DNA of 44,737 bases from a virus. Position numbers and translations under genes: made by a program. Location: positions 1 through 44,737 of IMG/VR virus record IMGVR_UViG_3300042887_001676; one strand, 5' to 3'. The notes under the pieces were generated by a model that made no database searches, was not told the origin of the DNA, and worked only from the letters and a program-made list of their open reading frames with translations. Below are positions 2,813-37,507 of this stretch, piece by piece. Position 1 is the first letter of the stretch; each line of letters opens with the position of its first letter.

Positions 2813-3928
2813 ATGAAAAACCTATCAAAAGAAGAATTATTAAGCCGTCTTGAGGCAATTAACAGAAGTAACGCCATTATTTATTTCGATTTATCAGGAA
2901 TTATATTAGGTGTTAATGATATTTTTTTGGTGGCGATGGGGTATGGAATAGGTAATCACGATGAACTTATTGGTAAACACCATAGTACTTTTGTATGTGA
3001 AGAATATGCAAAGTCACCTGAATATGAAAAATTTTGGGACATATTAAGAAGTGGTAAGTATTATCAAGGAGAATTTGAAAGAAGAAAAAAAGATAAAAGT
3101 CTTATAAATCTTCAAGCAACGTATAATCCTATTTTTGATGAGAGTGGTAAGATTACTAAAATAATGAAAATTGCTACTGACATTACGTCAATTGTTGATA
3201 GCAAGAAACAAATAGACGCAATTAACCGAAGTACCGCTCTTATTAATTTTAATACAGATGGATTTATATTAGATGTAAATTCTATATTTTTAGAAACTAT
3301 GGGTTATAAGTTTAATGAAAAAGATAAACTCATTGGGAAACATCATAGTATTTTTGTAAGTTATGAGTATTCAAAGTCAGATGAGTATATTAAGTTTTGG
3401 GAAAATTTAAGAAAGGGTAAATTTTTTGATGGAATATTTGAAAGAAGAAAAGTAGATGGTTCTATTGTTTATTTACAAGCATCTTATAATCCTGTGGTTG
3501 ACAGTAAAGGAAATATTACTGAAGTAGTTAAAATTGCGACAGATATTACTGAGTCAGTAAATAATAAGAAAAAAATAGATGAACTTACAACTAATTTGAC
3601 AATTGAGTTGGAAAACTCTCAAAAACTTAAACACTCAATTGAATTAGAAAAGGATGCTGCTTTAAATGATTTAGATGTAGTATTAAAAAAGAGTCAAAAT
3701 GAATTAATAAAAATAATTGTTAAATGTGCATTAGCTGTCATAGTTGGTGTTGGTATTGTGACAACTATGTTATATTGGATGGCTATTGTGACAAATCAAG
3801 ATACACAAATTATTGGTTCAACTTGGTCAAATATGTTTAGTGTTTTATTGACCAACGCATTCTCAATAGTTGGTACAATTATGGGAATAAAATACGCCAC
3901 ACAGGATGGTAGTAAACAACAACAGTAA
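2813..3928 (+). CDS. tandem PAS-domain membrane protein
   Basis: 371 residues. Two PAS/PAC repeats (about 10-130 and 133-250) share the pattern AINRS, GKHHS, FERRK and IATDIT and clearly arose by duplication. A coiled-coil stretch follows (about 250-300), then two membrane helices (about 305-325 and 340-362). There is no kinase, cyclase or methyl-accepting output domain. PAS domains of this kind bind small ligands or haem/flavin and mediate protein contacts. A role in sensing host state or in lysis timing is inference only. It lies just upstream of the endolysin. Confidence 0.75.
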   Translation: MKNLSKEELLSRLEAINRSNAIIYFDLSGIILGVNDIFLVAMGYGIGNHDELIGKHHSTFVCEEYAKSPEYEKFWDILRSGKYYQGEFERRKKDKSLINLQATYNPIFDESGKITKIMKIATDITSIVDSKKQIDAINRSTALINFNTDGFILDVNSIFLETMGYKFNEKDKLIGKHHSIFVSYEYSKSDEYIKFWENLRKGKFFDGIFERRKVDGSIVYLQASYNPVVDSKGNITEVVKIATDITESVNNKKKIDELTTNLTIELENSQKLKHSIELEKDAALNDLDVVLKKSQNELIKIIVKCALAVIVGVGIVTTMLYWMAIVTNQDTQIIGSTWSNMFSVLLTNAFSIVGTIMGIKYATQDGSKQQQ

Positions 3929-7378: not shown

Positions 7379-7404
7379 AACCTGACAATATGTCAGGTTT
7401 TTTG
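7379..7404 (+). terminator. Rho-independent terminator
   Basis: AACCTGACA and TGTCAGGTT with a short loop, then TTTTTTG. A second copy of the 5' arm lies at about 7359-7366. Confidence 0.8.
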
Positions 7405-7488
7405 TTTTGGCATAATTTTGATAATAATCGTGTTGTGCTTGACACATTGAAAATAAACATATATACTTTAACAAAACTTATTAAAACT

Positions 7489-9357
7489 ATGGGAAAAATT
7501 TTAGGTGTGGATTTAGGAACCACAAATTCTTGTTGTTCAATTATGGAGGGTGGAGACCCAATAATTATTGCTAATTCCGAAGGTAAAAGAACAACACCTT
7601 CAATCATTGCTTTCTTAGAAGGTGGTGAAAGAAAAGTTGGTGACCCAGCAAAAAGACAAGCGGTTACCAATCCAACAAAAACTATTCACTCAATTAAACG
7701 ATTTATGGGACTTACCTATGATGAGAGTAAAAAAGAACTTAAGAATGTTCCTTACTCAGTAATCAACGAAGGTTCTCAACCAAGAGTTCAAATTGATGAT
7801 AGACAATACTCACCACAAGAATTATCTGCAATTATCTTACAAAAGATGAAACAAACTGCGGAAGATTATGTTGGTGAAACAATTACTGATGCGGTAATTA
7901 CCGTACCAGCTTATTTTAACGATGCCCAACGTCAGGCAACCATTGAAGCAGGACAAATCGCCGGATTAAATGTGTTAAGGATAATTTCGGAACCTACAGC
8001 GGCGGCTCTTGCATACGGTCTTGACAAAAAAGGGGATAGTAAAATTGTTGTGTTTGACTGCGGAGGTGGAACTCACGACGTATCTGTTCTTGATTTAGGT
8101 GGTGGTGTATTTGAGGTATTATCTACCGATGGAGACACACACTTAGGAGGGGACGACTTTGACAGAGTCATTATTGATTTCTTGGTTGAGGAATTCAAGA
8201 ACGATAATGGTGGTTTAGACATCTCAAAAGACGCTATGGCATTACAAAGGTTAAGAGAAGGTGCTGAGAAAGCGAAGGTTGAATTATCTTCATCTCCTCA
8301 AACTGAAATCAACTTACCTTATTTAAGTGCTGATGCGACCGGACCAAAACACTTGGTGAAAACATTAACGAGAGCAAAGTTTGAACAACTTTCTGCTGAC
8401 TTAATCAAAAGAACAATCGACCCTTGTAAAACGGCATTGAAAAACGCGAAACTTAAGGTTTCCGATATTGATGAGATTATTCTTGTTGGTGGAACAACAA
8501 GAATCCCGGCAATACAAGATGCGGTTAAGAAGTTCTTTGGTAAAGAACCATCAAAAGGTGTTAATCCGGATGAAGTAGTTGCGTTAGGAGCGGCTATTCA
8601 AGGAGGTGTATTGGCTGGTGATGTGAAAGACGTGTTGTTATTAGACGTAACACCACTTTCATTAGGTATTGAAACAATGGGTGGTATTTTAACACGACTT
8701 ATTGAGGCAAATACTACAATCCCAACCAAAAAGTCACAAGTGTTCTCAACCGCTGTTGATAATCAACCTTCTGTGGAGATTCACGTCTTACAAGGGGAGA
8801 GACCAATGGCAAAAGACAACAGAACGATGGGTAGATTCCATTTAGATGGTTTACCACCGTCTATGAGAGGTGTTCCTCAAATTGAGGTTATCTTTGATAT
8901 TGACGCGAATGGTATCATCAATGTATCTGCAGTTGACAAAGCAACAAACAAAACACAATCAATTAGAATTGAGGGTTCAACGGGATTATCTCAAGAAGAT
9001 ATTGAAAGAATGAAGGCTGAAGCTGAAGAAAACGCTGAGGCGGACAAAAAAGTTAAAGAGGATGTGGATACACTAAACTCTGCTGACAACCTGATATTCC
9101 AAACAGGTAAATCTTTAACGGATTTAGAGGATAAGATTTCTGAAGAACAAAAAACAGAAATAACAACTCTTCTTGATACCTTGAAAGAATCTCATTCTAA
9201 TAAAGATGTGGAAAATGTTAAAACGATTATGGAAGAACTTACCCAAAAGTTCCAAACCATTACACAAGATTTATACAATAGTGTAAATGAAAGTGAAGTA
9301 AGTGAATCAGATATAAACGCTTCAGACGTAGAGTTTGAAGAAGTTAAACCTGAGTAA
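7489..9357 (+). CDS. dnaK: DnaK (Hsp70) chaperone
   Basis: 622 residues from ATG 7489, giving [14 protein letters not shown]. The frame opens at 7390, but that stretch overlaps the upstream terminator. The whole bacterial Hsp70 layout is present: the ATPase phosphate-1 motif GVDLGTTNS (6-14), [14 protein letters not shown], the phosphate-2 motif [18 protein letters not shown], the adenosine motif [13 protein letters not shown], the interdomain linker [15 protein letters not shown], a substrate-binding domain and a helical lid. The C-terminus ends in VEFEEVKPE, close to the usual EEVK tail. Hsp70s fold and remodel proteins in the cytoplasm with DnaJ and GrpE. Neither partner gene is visible, so it would use those of the host. 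A complete phage-borne dnaK is rare; the AT-rich codon use matches its neighbours, so any transfer is not recent. Confidence 0.97.
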
Positions 9358-26945: not shown

Positions 26946-27046
26946 CGGGTTAGTTAAATAGTTTAATCCACGCCCAAAAAAGAATGTCCGGAGAGAGTCC
27001 GGGGCGAACGTAATTGTGGTAACCGTTCTTTAACTAAAAAATATTT

Positions 27047-27484: not shown

Positions 27485-27624
27485 AATGATAATGGTTTTC
27501 TCTATCTACCGGATGTCGACAATCCAAGATAGGTTCAAGAATTCATACACCCCCTGCCGGTGCACCGTAAAACTTCTTAAAGCAGTTAAGATTGGAGCGA
27601 GATGGGTACTCCAACATTATCATT
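27485..27624 (+). ncRNA. structured spacer RNA closed by a ~10-bp inverted repeat
   Basis: AATGATAATG (27485-27494) pairs with CATTATCATT at the other end. Inside are hairpins CTATC..GATAG with inner GGAT..ATCC, the palindrome GGTGCACC, TCTTAA..TTAAGA, and TTGGAG..CTCCAA just before the closing strand. It has a multi-branched, tRNA-like size but no readable anticodon arm. It is followed by A-C like the tRNAs. Function unknown. Confidence 0.5.
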
Positions 27625-30040: not shown

Positions 30041-30110
30041 CCCCGTAGCAAACCGGTGTAGGCAACTGGCTTTTAACCAGTGGGGTCAGGTTCAACTCCT
30101 GACGGGGGAA
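30039..30110 (+). tRNA. tRNA-Lys(UUU)
   Basis: Acceptor TCCCCCG/CGGGGGA, anticodon arm ACTGG-CTTTTAA-CCAGT, T-loop TTCAACT, A73-C74. Confidence 0.93.
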
Positions 30111-30142
30111 CAAAAAAATGTTTAACTAATAAATCAAAAGTC

Positions 30143-30649
30143 GTGAGTAAGTACGGAAAAACATTGGTTTTGGATTCAAGTTATATGCCAAGGTCTATCA
30201 TAAATACTGAGAGGGCTTTTGTAATTTCTTATAAAGGTAATGCAAGTGTTATTGCCGAACATCCGGAATCATTCAAGTTAATCAATCCTGAATTGGATAT
30301 TAAAAAACCTTCAATTATTAGGGTTTACAAATATGTGAATCAACCGATTCAAAAAGTTCCTTTAAGTAGAGAAAATGTTTATAGAAGAGATGGATATACC
30401 TGTGTTTATTGTGGGTGTGACAATCGTAAGACATTGACATTAGACCACGTAGTACCCCAATCTAAGGGTGGTAAAGATGCGTGGGATAACTTGGTAACCG
30501 CTTGTAGAAGATGTAACGGTGAGAAGTCCAATTTGACTTTGGAAGAGTATGGTAAAGAAATTCCACAACCAAGACGACCACACTATTTGATGTTAATGAG
30601 ACAGGTTCATTATATCCCGGAAGAATGGGAACCATATTTATTATTTTAA
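30143..30649 (+). CDS. HNH endonuclease of the single-domain bacterial type
   Basis: 168 residues from a GTG at 30143 (reads MSKYGKTLVLDSSYMPRS). No in-frame ATG exists upstream of that point and the frame otherwise runs back into tRNA-Lys. The HNH motif is YTCVYCG..LTLDHVVPQSKGGKDAWDNLVTACRRCNGEK. The N-terminal LVLDSSYMP motif and length match a common free-standing HNH family in bacteria. It may be a homing enzyme or a DNA-packaging nuclease; its site among tRNAs favours homing. Confidence 0.85.
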   Translation: MSKYGKTLVLDSSYMPRSIINTERAFVISYKGNASVIAEHPESFKLINPELDIKKPSIIRVYKYVNQPIQKVPLSRENVYRRDGYTCVYCGCDNRKTLTLDHVVPQSKGGKDAWDNLVTACRRCNGEKSNLTLEEYGKEIPQPRRPHYLMLMRQVHYIPEEWEPYLLF

Positions 30650-31998: not shown

Positions 31999-32742
31999 AT
32001 GTTTCATTACACTTATAGGTTAGATTTATTAGAAACTGGTGAATATTATTTTGGTAGTAGGTCATCAAAAGTAGAACCTTTGAAAGATAGTTATATGGGG
32101 TCTATGAAAAGTTGGAGACCCGATAAAACAAAGTTAGTTAAAACTATTATTAGAGATGATTTTGAAAATAGACAAGATTGTATGTTACACGAGCGTCAAT
32201 TGATTATAGAACATATTAGTGATTTACTTAATAAAAACGCATATATTCCGGATGTTGGATTTGTTACTGTAGGATTGGGACAATATATTGATGAAAATGG
32301 TAAAGTTTTTAGATTAAGTAAAGACGACAAGTTAGTATTAAACGGTAAGTTAAAACCTTTTTGGGAGGGTAAACATCACTCTAACGAAAGTAAATATAAA
32401 ATGAGTCAATCCGCTTTAGGTAGAAAAATTAGTGATGACACCAAAAAAAAGATGAGTGAATTTTGGAAAGGTAAATCTAAATCAGATACACATAGGAAAA
32501 AAATGAGTGAATCGTCTAAAGGTGATAATAATAATTACAAAAGATATTTGGAACGAACAGGATTACCTCACGCAAAATCAAAACCAATCTTACAATTTTC
32601 ACTAAACGGTGAATTAATAAAAGAATGGGTTAATGGGAATATTGCATCTAAAGAAAGTGGTATAAGTTATAAAGGTATTAATAATAATTTAAGAGGTAAA
32701 ACAAAAACGTCGGGAGGTTTTGTTTGGAAATATAAAGATTAA
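31999..32742 (+). CDS. GIY-YIG-type homing endonuclease with NUMOD repeats
   Basis: 247 residues. The N-terminal YTYRL..GEYYFGSR is a GIY-YIG variant, with a catalytic-type E in CMLHERQLI. Residues about 128-175 hold NUMOD3-like DNA-binding repeats (YKMSQSALGRKIS, KKKMSEFWKGKS, RKKMSESSKG). The C-terminal 55 residues form a NUMOD1-like helix-turn-helix (GNIASKESGISYKGI). It lies directly upstream of the second tRNA group. Confidence 0.82.
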   Translation: MFHYTYRLDLLETGEYYFGSRSSKVEPLKDSYMGSMKSWRPDKTKLVKTIIRDDFENRQDCMLHERQLIIEHISDLLNKNAYIPDVGFVTVGLGQYIDENGKVFRLSKDDKLVLNGKLKPFWEGKHHSNESKYKMSQSALGRKISDDTKKKMSEFWKGKSKSDTHRKKMSESSKGDNNNYKRYLERTGLPHAKSKPILQFSLNGELIKEWVNGNIASKESGISYKGINNNLRGKTKTSGGFVWKYKD

Positions 32743-32810
32743 AACCCTCGCTACGTAGTCACTGCAGGATAACACGTACAGACAAGGAAGAAAAGGTCAG
32801 TCCGGGGGTT
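32743..32810 (+). ncRNA. structured spacer RNA or terminator-like hairpin
   Basis: AACCCTCG pairs with CGGGGGTT and TTTTT follows. The internal part has small palindromes (CTACGTAG, CTGCAG). It could terminate the endonuclease mRNA or be another inter-tRNA RNA. Confidence 0.4.
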
Positions 32811-32816
32811 TTTAAT

Positions 32817-32909
32817 GGTCAGGTTGGATACAAGGTCGGTTCGAGTCCGATGGAAGGTCACGGATGACGGGTAGCTCCCTGTAGAGAGGTTCGATTCCTC
32901 TCCTGACTA
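32817..32909 (+). tRNA. composite Leu-like tRNA with two T-arm-like hairpins
   Basis: Acceptor GGTCAGG/CCTGACT, identical to the Leu-like tRNA at 28716, with A73-C74 and T-arm GAGG-TTCGATT-CCTC. A second, perfect T-arm-like hairpin GTCGG-TTCGAGT-CCGAT lies where D/anticodon arms are expected. A variable-arm hairpin GGGTAGCTCCC follows. The anticodon is unresolved. It may be a recombinant, interrupted or decayed tRNA. Confidence 0.5.
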
Positions 32910-32915
32910 CAAAAT

Positions 32916-32986
32916 ACATCGTTGGTGAAATGGTATCATTTTGAGTTCCAACCTCAAAGTTCAGGGTTCGAGTCCTTGGCGGTGTG
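32916..32986 (+). tRNA. tRNA-Trp(CCA)
   Basis: Acceptor ACATCGT/GCGGTGT, anticodon arm TTGAG-TTCCAAC-CTCAA, T-loop TTCGAGT, discriminator G as required for Trp, C74. Confidence 0.9.
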
Positions 32987-32995
32987 CAAGAAGAC

Positions 32996-33047
32996 GGAGA
33001 GTGAGCCAAGGGTAATTCCGTTATGGTTATCCCTTGGGGGTCTCTCC
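32996..33047 (+). ncRNA. long bipartite hairpin RNA
   Basis: GGAGAG/CTCTCC encloses CCAAGGGTAA/TTATCCCTTGG with an 11-base loop. No T-run at the end. Stable structured RNA of unknown role. Confidence 0.5.
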
Positions 33048-33056
33048 TGAAGAATT

Positions 33057-33264
33057 AAAAAGTTTAACAACCGGGGTGTCCATACCCTTAAAAACTAATG
33101 GACTAGGTGTGTTGATAGGGGTGACCTCCCAACAGTAGCTGATTAAATTCAAGATAGATAAGGACTGGTACGCCGGTGAGGAACACGACCAATTCCGGAA
33201 TTCCCACGAGAAGAAATTCTCAAGTTGCTCGCTACGACCCGAGGGCGGGGTTGTTAAACTTTTT
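33057..33264 (+). ncRNA. ~208-nt structured RNA closed by a perfect 16-bp stem
   Basis: 33057-33072 is perfectly complementary to 33249-33264. Inside are GTCCAT..ATGGAC, GTTG..CAAC, CTGG-TACG-CCGG, AATTCC..GGAATT and GAGAA-GAAA-TTCTC (a GNRA tetraloop), plus loose single-stranded joins. No reading frame of note. It resembles a folded functional RNA more than a terminator. An RNase-P-like block (ACGCC..GACCA) was noted, but the rest does not fit. Confidence 0.6.
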
Positions 33265-33281: not shown

Positions 33282-33602
33282 ATGAAATACTTTATAACTG
33301 AATCCCGATTACACGATACCGTTATTAAATTTTTAAATAATAATTATGGTGGGTTAGAACCGTTTGTGTCTAAAAAACATCCGGGTCATATTTTTTTTAT
33401 AAAAGATGGTGAAATTATTATTGAGTTTACAAGAGTTAACGGACTTGCTTTGGTATCATATGAAGAAGTTTGGGATTTATTACTAAATTTTTTTGGATTT
33501 AATTTTGAAGAAGGTCAAGAAATAATTAAAAAATGGATTATTGAAAATTATGATTTACCAGTAAAACACGTTACACAATATAAATGGAACATAGACCTAT
33601 AA
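33282..33602 (+). CDS. late protein with ITES N-terminus
   Basis: 106 residues. MKYFITESRLHD carries the ITE site. The rest is a compact alpha/beta sequence with an aromatic-rich C-terminus (HVTQYKWNIDL). Function unknown. Confidence 0.6.
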   Translation: MKYFITESRLHDTVIKFLNNNYGGLEPFVSKKHPGHIFFIKDGEIIIEFTRVNGLALVSYEEVWDLLLNFFGFNFEEGQEIIKKWIIENYDLPVKHVTQYKWNIDL

Positions 33603-36254: not shown

Positions 36255-36361
36255 TGATTATAGTGTAATGGTGCACACCATCCCCCAAAACAGGGTTCGA
36301 GTCCCTGGAACGTGGGCTTCTCAGGGGAAGGAGGATTAAGGTTCGAATCCTTACTAATCAG
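36255..36361 (+). tRNA. composite tRNA-like element with two T-arms
   Basis: Acceptor TGATTA/TAATCA, D-arm TGTAATGGTGCACA, T-arm TAAGG-TTCGAAT-CCTTA and G73-C74 define the ends. Between D-arm and final T-arm lie CAGGG-TTCGAGT-CCCTG and CTTC..GAAG. At 107 bases it is too long for one tRNA. It parallels the composite at 32817. Isotype unresolved. Confidence 0.45.
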
Positions 36362-36366
36362 CAAAA

Positions 36367-36490
36367 TGTAATTAACATAATGTCCTTAGCGGGAGAGCCT
36401 AATAAGTTACGGATAATCCTTCGGTAATTTATGATATGGTAACGTGGAAACAAGAGTAAGAGGATTTGAGTTCCGCCTATGTTAATTACA
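36367..36490 (+). ncRNA. structured spacer RNA with perfect 13-bp closing stem
   Basis: TGTAATTAACATA (36367-36379) pairs perfectly with 36478-36490. Inside, GCGG..CCGC continues the stem and TAAGTTAC..GTAATTTA forms an 8-bp hairpin. About 124 bases, no reading frame. One of the clearest members of the spacer-RNA set. Confidence 0.6.
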
Positions 36491-37413: not shown

Positions 37414-37507
37414 TACATTATCATAACTCGGTGTGATACACCGCCAACTACCTCCTTAAACAACGTGGGAACTGCGGTTCTCCCAATGTGGCCGAAGTGA
37501 TAATGTA
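37414..37507 (+). ncRNA. structured spacer RNA closed by TACATTATCA/TGATAATGTA
   Basis: The 10-bp stem continues as ACTCGG/CCGAAG. Inside are CGGTGT..ACACCG and GGGAAC-TGCG-GTTCTCCC hairpins. 94 bases, directly before tRNA-Thr. A further member of the spacer-RNA set. Confidence 0.55.

Follow-up and report, generated by a model that had tools for sequence, protein, structure and literature searches.

The window analysed here is a stretch of 44,737 nucleotides from a virus (IMG/VR record IMGVR_UViG_3300042887_001676, positions 1 to 44,737). Positions 33057–33264, inside a tRNA array, are a stand-alone structured noncoding RNA gene, here termed RNA-A, which depends for its function on a three-dimensional structure that has been conserved (Table 1). 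As the initial annotation had it, the gene lies beside tRNA-Trp, beginning 69 nt downstream of it; on the other side, a 106-codon open reading frame (ORF) on the plus strand (33282–33602) begins 17 nt past the RNA-A 3' end. The perfect 16-bp inverted repeat that had been described at the two ends is exactly where it was placed and is compensated in relatives. The reported lack of a reading frame was likewise confirmed, the overlapping ORFs being only spurious (24–42 codons), and relatives are separated by indels of 1 and 15 nt. In single-sequence folding, 199 of 200 shuffled versions gave a less stable structure than RNA-A itself (z −2.61).

Table 1. Positions of RNA-A, its structural elements and further stem-bracketed segments. 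Coordinates refer to the window unless preceded by the handle of another locus.
Feature	Position	Strand	Description
RNA-A, whole RNA gene	33057–33264	+	208 nt; homologs match covariance model R1
tRNA-Trp	32916–32987	+	upstream neighbour of RNA-A
P1, 5' strand	33057–33072	+	16-bp closing stem
P1, 3' strand	33249–33264	+	runs into U-run
Pseudoknot a, S1 5' strand	33073–33077	+	pairs with 33084–33088
Pseudoknot a, S2 5' strand	33078–33083	+	GUCCAU; pairs with 33098–33103
Pseudoknot a, S1 3' strand	33084–33088	+	
Pseudoknot a, S2 3' strand	33098–33103	+	AUGGAC
Pseudoknot b, 5' strand	33107–33113	+	pairs with P5b loop 33182–33188
P3 hairpin	33118–33130	+	33118–33121 / 33126, 33128–33130
Pseudoknot c, 5' strand	33135–33139	+	GUAGC; pairs with P7 loop 33231–33235
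P4	33140–33151	+	variable hairpin
Unpaired stretch, about 20 nt	33152–33171	+	strongly conserved; GAUAGAUAAGGACUNGUAC
P5, 5' strand	33172–33176	+	pairs with 33195–33199
P5b hairpin	33180–33190	+	33180–33181 / 33189–33190
Pseudoknot b, 3' strand	33182–33188	+	7-nt P5b loop AACACGA
P5, 3' strand	33195–33199	+	
P6	33208–33221	+	optional hairpin GAGAA-GAAA-UUCUC
P7 hairpin	33227–33246	+	33227–33230 / 33243–33246; loop forms pseudoknot c
Pseudoknot c, 3' strand	33231–33235	+	GCUAC
Inter-tRNA noncoding gaps	26950–27037, 27485–27624, 36367–36490, 37414–37507		bracketed by perfect 9–13-bp stems
RNA-B, 145–152 nt	L006:6350–6501, L016:8696–8846, L063:5565–5715, others	−	closed by AAAAACAGAC/GUCUGUUUUU

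RNA-A has at least 19 distinct relatives on about 30 IMG/VR contigs of up to 322 kb. A 20-letter core pattern retrieved 10 viral contigs with RNA-A, two additional patterns brought the total to 27 loci, and later scans added L062, L063, L081 and L082; the 19 distinct full-length sequences score 97–277 bits with the covariance model R1. Contigs cut within RNA-A aside, there is one full-length copy per scanned record, with L063 carrying a complete divergent copy plus an extra 3' remnant and L064 the 3' tail only. All copies lie inside phage tRNA arrays or at the array edge and are encoded on the tRNA strand. In the main group RNA-A is found 3' of tRNA-Trp/Cys and 5' of tRNA-Glu/Asp, and the two most distant copies are at the array edge, after tRNA-Met in L081 and before tRNA-Ser in L082. 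Six published records of huge phages (four from uncultured phages of 635–735 kb, one of 484 kb and one Lak phage) contained no RNA-A, an exact-pattern search of GTDB genomes gave no copy, and a DNA search of 50,697 phage records returned nothing beyond the adjacent tRNA and short stretches alike by chance. An open-literature search found no published description. Pattern matches in GTDB (L037–L039) and in viral records (L032, L033, L036 and L065–L068) were rejected as chance or coding matches, and a 14.9-bit match in the 634-kb phage LR745206 proved to be a P1-like chance stem that was absent from the whole-record scan.

RNA-A is carried by a group of very large phages that have not been cultivated, and their records include contigs of 308–322 kb. 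Identity between their terminase and those of named phages does not exceed 29%, the nearest being T4-like and Flavobacterium phages. The window contains a full gene for the chaperone DnaK (7390–9357; 972 bits), whose relatives are 85–98% identical and include DnaKs of huge phages. An ORF at 1411–2271 resembles class II aminoacyl-tRNA synthetases (PF00152; weak EpmA/GenX-like match), and homing endonuclease-like ORFs (phrog_314, HNH) are found inside the tRNA array at 31999–32742 and 30080–30649.

Comparison of the 19 sequences defined RNA-A as a 16-bp clamp, P1, closing a core with three pseudoknots. Pseudoknot a is of the H-type and lies immediately inside P1, with helices S1 and S2 interleaving; in pseudoknot b a 5' strand kisses the P5b loop, and in pseudoknot c GUAGC kisses the P7 loop. 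Overall, pairing is kept in 96.7% of 1150 cells, and two-sided changes occur at 33 of the 65 pairs, a number matched in none of 500 shuffles (mean 10.6 pairs), while sliding the columns by 1–3 positions as a control gave 7–12 two-sided pairs and 37–47% paired cells. S1 and the helices of pseudoknots b and c had been left out of the R1 model used for aligning, so that the alignment did not produce their covariation. The fold of this new RNA family is settled by covariation. The initial annotation had named a search for co-varying stems in related phages as a check, with loss of pairing as the outcome that would speak against an RNA, and the pairing was found to be conserved. The long unpaired stretches are also strongly conserved.

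In the closing stem, 14 of the 16 P1 pairs show two-sided changes among relatives. The P1 strands are AAAAAGUUUAACAACC/GGUUGUUAAACUUUUU in the main group, AAUUUAACACCUC/GAGGUGUUAAAUU in L081 and UUUAGGUAAGGA/UCCUUACCUAAA in L082, with almost every pair in the latter two swapped for another complementary pair. S1 reads GGGGU/ACUCU, becomes AGAGU/ACUCU in L062 and is altered on both sides in L081 and L082; S2 varies as UCUGU/ACAGA (L063), GUCUAU/AUAGAC (L081) and UUCUAU/AUAGAA (L082). Pseudoknot b includes a pair (33108–33187) that is C-G in 10 sequences, U-A in eight and U-G in one, and pseudoknot c changes from GUAGC/GCUAC to GUACC/GGUAC in L063, L081 and L082. P5 is GCCGG/CCGGA, with AGUGG/CCACU in L026 and L062, GGGAG/CUCUC in L063 and UUAGG/CCUAA in L081, and its outer pair is G-A in 14 of the 19 sequences. 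P5b has G-C in 11 and C-G in eight sequences, with G-C, C-G, U-A and U-G types over its two pairs. P3 (98.7% of cells paired) changes from G-C to U-G in two relatives, and P4, which is ACCGUA-NNAA-UACGGU in most relatives, from G-C to A-U in two. P6 is missing from about half of the relatives, and P7 has 96% of cells paired, although the three copies that diverge most have a broken third pair.

The earlier reading of the interior, with several helices, one of them capped by a GNRA and one by a UACG tetraloop, was not supported as drawn; the two hairpins gave way to the three pseudoknots. The proposed UACG hairpin CUGG-UACG-CCGG is contradicted: many relatives have CUAG with CCGG unchanged, and CCGG covaries instead with 33195–33199. 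The GUGA sequence read as a GNRA loop is conserved only in part, becoming GUAG in L062 and GUAA in L063, L081 and L082. Two further helices were considered and discarded: a GGG/CCC helix beside P1, proposed by RNAalifold and built into R1, is broken in L062 and is replaced by S1, and a helix 33133–33136/33164–33167, suggested by a C/U-G/A correlation, clashes with pseudoknot c and has exceptions in L023, L026 and L063.

Since the fold has been kept while the letters changed, RNA-A is very probably a working RNA. RNA-A is 92–97% identical between phages whose large terminase subunits (TerL) share 70–85% aa identity, which signals importance in the lineage; the third codon positions of terL are about 52–69% identical in the pairs compared. 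RNA-A similarity does not closely track that of TerL, so that exchange of the gene between phages appears likely, and the very high identity could stem in part from recent exchange. Homing endonuclease genes in the arrays offer a possible route, and in L063 the end of a GIY-YIG gene abuts the RNA-A 3' remnant at P6, beside the complete divergent copy. RNA-A may nonetheless be dispensable, because in L064, a contig of only 26 kb, fusion of a neighbouring RNA (RNA-B, see below) to the RNA-A 3' tail seems to have removed it.

The initial annotation had pointed to GOLLD and ROOL as ornate RNAs near phage tRNAs and had seen no obvious match to either. This was borne out by the Rfam scan, in which RNA-A belonged to neither of these nor to any other Rfam family. 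With cmscan and all 4227 Rfam families, no meaningful match to RNA-A was obtained at E values up to 10 for the copy in the window or for five related loci, nor at E up to 2 for L016, L006 and L063; these scans likewise gave no match over RNA-A for the covariance models of GOLLD, ROOL and raiA (E up to 10 or 2). The single sub-threshold entry over RNA-A was a plastid group II domain 5 model (20 nt, 19 bits, cut-off 61). It is close to certain that RNA-A represents a real, structured and independent RNA family without a described Rfam counterpart.

These scans also bear on a catalytic role, in which RNA-A would be a ribozyme, or what is left of a small element capable of self-splicing or homing, that cleaves itself or the neighbouring tRNA precursor. 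Intron peripheral loops often carry homing endonuclease genes; such genes occur in the same arrays, with the GIY-YIG gene of L063 touching an RNA-A remnant, and the compact multi-pseudoknot fold and long conserved unpaired strands would suit catalysis. Such a role is nevertheless rather unlikely, given that no Rfam ribozyme or intron matched at E up to 10 over RNA-A in the loci scanned, apart from the short domain 5 hit at 19 bits, that RNA-A lies between complete genes with no exon junction, and that nothing resembling the P7 core of group I introns was seen. An intron match had been named beforehand as a finding that would count against a new RNA; no group I match appeared at E up to 10 and there are no flanking exons.

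RNA-A resembles tmRNA (RF00023) in its closing helix, its pseudoknots and its occurrence among phage tRNAs, but it contains no tRNA-like domain or T arm and no tag reading frame with a stop codon (spurious ORFs; 1-nt indels among relatives). RF00023 matches L034 and not RNA-A. A true phage tmRNA (L034:4600–4881; 59.7 bits) is located beside tRNA-Leu/Ala/Ser in that other phage and has the pattern GGTGTCCAT..ATGGACTAG in common with RNA-A. Kinship with tmRNA through L031, L034 and L035 was rejected, as a true tmRNA is present there, only the search pattern is common and R1 does not match.

Stable RNAs of unassigned role have been known for decades in the tRNA cluster of phage T4, which has the same terminase superfamily as the RNA-A phages. 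Two of them, rnaC (species 1) and rnaD (species 2), are annotated within that cluster as small stable noncoding RNAs of 139 and 119 nt, next to segB, a GIY-YIG homing endonuclease gene. RNA-A shares this setting, being noncoding and on the tRNA strand within an array with homing endonucleases nearby. No homology to rnaC or rnaD was found by sequence or structure, the highest R1 score across the T4 region being 5.4 bits. RNA-A has no counterpart of the tRNA-like T arm in which rnaC terminates, and neither T4 RNA is predicted to have a 16-bp clamp. In kind, the nearest known RNAs are ROOL and GOLLD, multi-pseudoknot noncoding phage RNAs encoded near tRNA islands, and the raiA motif RNA, which is compact (about 205 nt) and was resolved as a monomer (PMC12286853). 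ROOL and GOLLD are several times longer than RNA-A, GOLLD often exceeding 800 nt, whereas raiA, a bacterial example (Clostridium) with no Rfam match over RNA-A, is of about its size. RNA-A may thus be likened to rnaC/rnaD in setting and to the raiA/ROOL type in its compact multi-pseudoknot form, and by the tests made it is a member of none of these families.

The likeness to ROOL and GOLLD raises the prospect of RNA-only oligomers or cages, perhaps formed through the palindromic AAUUCCGGAAUU, a self-complementary segment of RNA-A. These RNAs are likewise multi-pseudoknotted and near phage tRNA islands (PMC12286853), but RNA-A measures no more than about 200 nt, L026, L062, L063, L081 and L082 have lost the palindrome, the CCGG half of the palindrome is part of P5, and raiA, of equal size (205 nt), is a monomer (PMC12286853). 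Cage formation is highly improbable. From ROOL and GOLLD it was already clear that unexplained RNAs occur in phage tRNA islands, and RNA-A adds a family to these.

Conservation of RNA-A stops at P1. Upstream, the 3' end of a tRNA adjoins directly in some loci and another RNA in others; downstream, the next ORF differs between loci and in several there is none within 260 nt. An examination of the downstream genes for a cis-regulatory relationship found no conserved gene class, the next ORFs being unrelated or absent. A cis element, be it a terminator, a regulator of the next gene such as an attenuator or riboswitch, or simply a processing signal for the tRNA precursor, would account for the U-run at the RNA-A 3' end and for the closeness of the next ORF in the window, and a terminator-like hairpin is present at 33234–33254, although at chance frequency (one found, 0.9 expected). 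This hairpin overlaps P1 and P7, and its arms ACGACCC/GGGGUUGU are non-complementary in L063 and L082, two copies that retain P1 and pseudoknot c; moreover, termination has no need of three pseudoknots. A simple terminator, the other finding named in advance as counting against a new RNA, was accordingly not what was seen, as RNA-A has the U-run but no conserved GC-rich hairpin. Because the downstream gene differs between loci, a role as a cis-acting switch, leader or riboswitch appears unlikely, and the same verdict is reached for cis elements in general.

Since conservation ends at P1 and the neighbours vary, RNA-A acts as a unit, probably in trans, and is likely to work in this way as a stable RNA. 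The best explanation, held with moderate confidence, is an independent, fold-dependent RNA gene giving an array-derived, clamp-protected stable RNA that acts in trans on one conserved partner. RNA-A would be transcribed together with the tRNA array, and RNases cutting the flanking AU-rich strands or at P1 would release it. The P1 clamp would then protect the released RNA, which could act stably in trans by binding a single conserved partner, either a protein or a ribosomal part, of host or phage. Its setting may be phage take-over or defence of translation, a link drawn from the place of the gene among the tRNAs, a near-complete set of which accompanies it. Decoy and mimicry roles are known for other phage RNAs, and RNA-A, being phage-borne, strongly conserved and within a tRNA arsenal, might serve as a decoy against host defence or RNases, or regulate RNA polymerase or the ribosome by mimicry; this is quite improbable, no similarity of RNA-A to a known target RNA having been found. 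At its size, RNA-A is amenable to cryo-EM or crystallography by routine means and to tests with compensatory mutants, and the role of tRNA-array noncoding RNAs for the phage becomes directly testable, and the same arrays hold more candidates.

Among these candidates are the inter-tRNA gaps of the window listed in Table 1, one of which (36367–36490) folds with a z of −4.1. Across nine arrays, 22 of 106 tRNA-flanking gaps had a terminal stem of at least 8 bp, with about 1.9 expected from edge shuffles. The bracket after tRNA-Tyr varies in sequence between phages while its complementarity is kept, and several bracketed noncoding stretches are conserved between records. RNA-B adjoins RNA-A on the upstream side in many relatives and was not found in the window. 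RNA-A thereby becomes one member of a set, a context that the initial annotation had not noticed and that lends support to its release from a presumed common transcript. Tentatively, RNA-A could be the best-conserved of maybe ten or more stem-bracketed noncoding RNAs in huge T4-related phages, a set that might remodel or defend host translation.

Other segments of the arrays showed comparable features. In the window, a hairpin GACGGAGAG..CUCUCC (32988–33050) that is nearly identical in many relatives is located between tRNA-Trp and RNA-A, and a bracketed segment AAAACCC..GGGGGUUUUU (32740–32819), for which relatives show AAAACACCCGCUACGUAACGAAAGCGCUACGACACGUAC..GGGUGUUUU, gave a single-sequence fold no better than shuffles. 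Two tRNA-like genes (32817–32910 and 36255–36362) each contain two T-arm-like hairpins (GGTTCGA..), with inconsistent ARAGORN calls, and the first of them recurs in L023 and L026. In the tRNA array of L063, positions 2886–2954 (minus strand) gave a sub-threshold match to an HDV-like ribozyme (33 bits, cut-off 44). Upstream of RNA-A in L016 and L063, and at L026:2455–2600, there is an RNA of about 145 nt that resembles a tRNA (GGGUAAC..GUUACCC) and carries a T arm; it is reminiscent of T4 rnaC, which likewise ends in a T arm.
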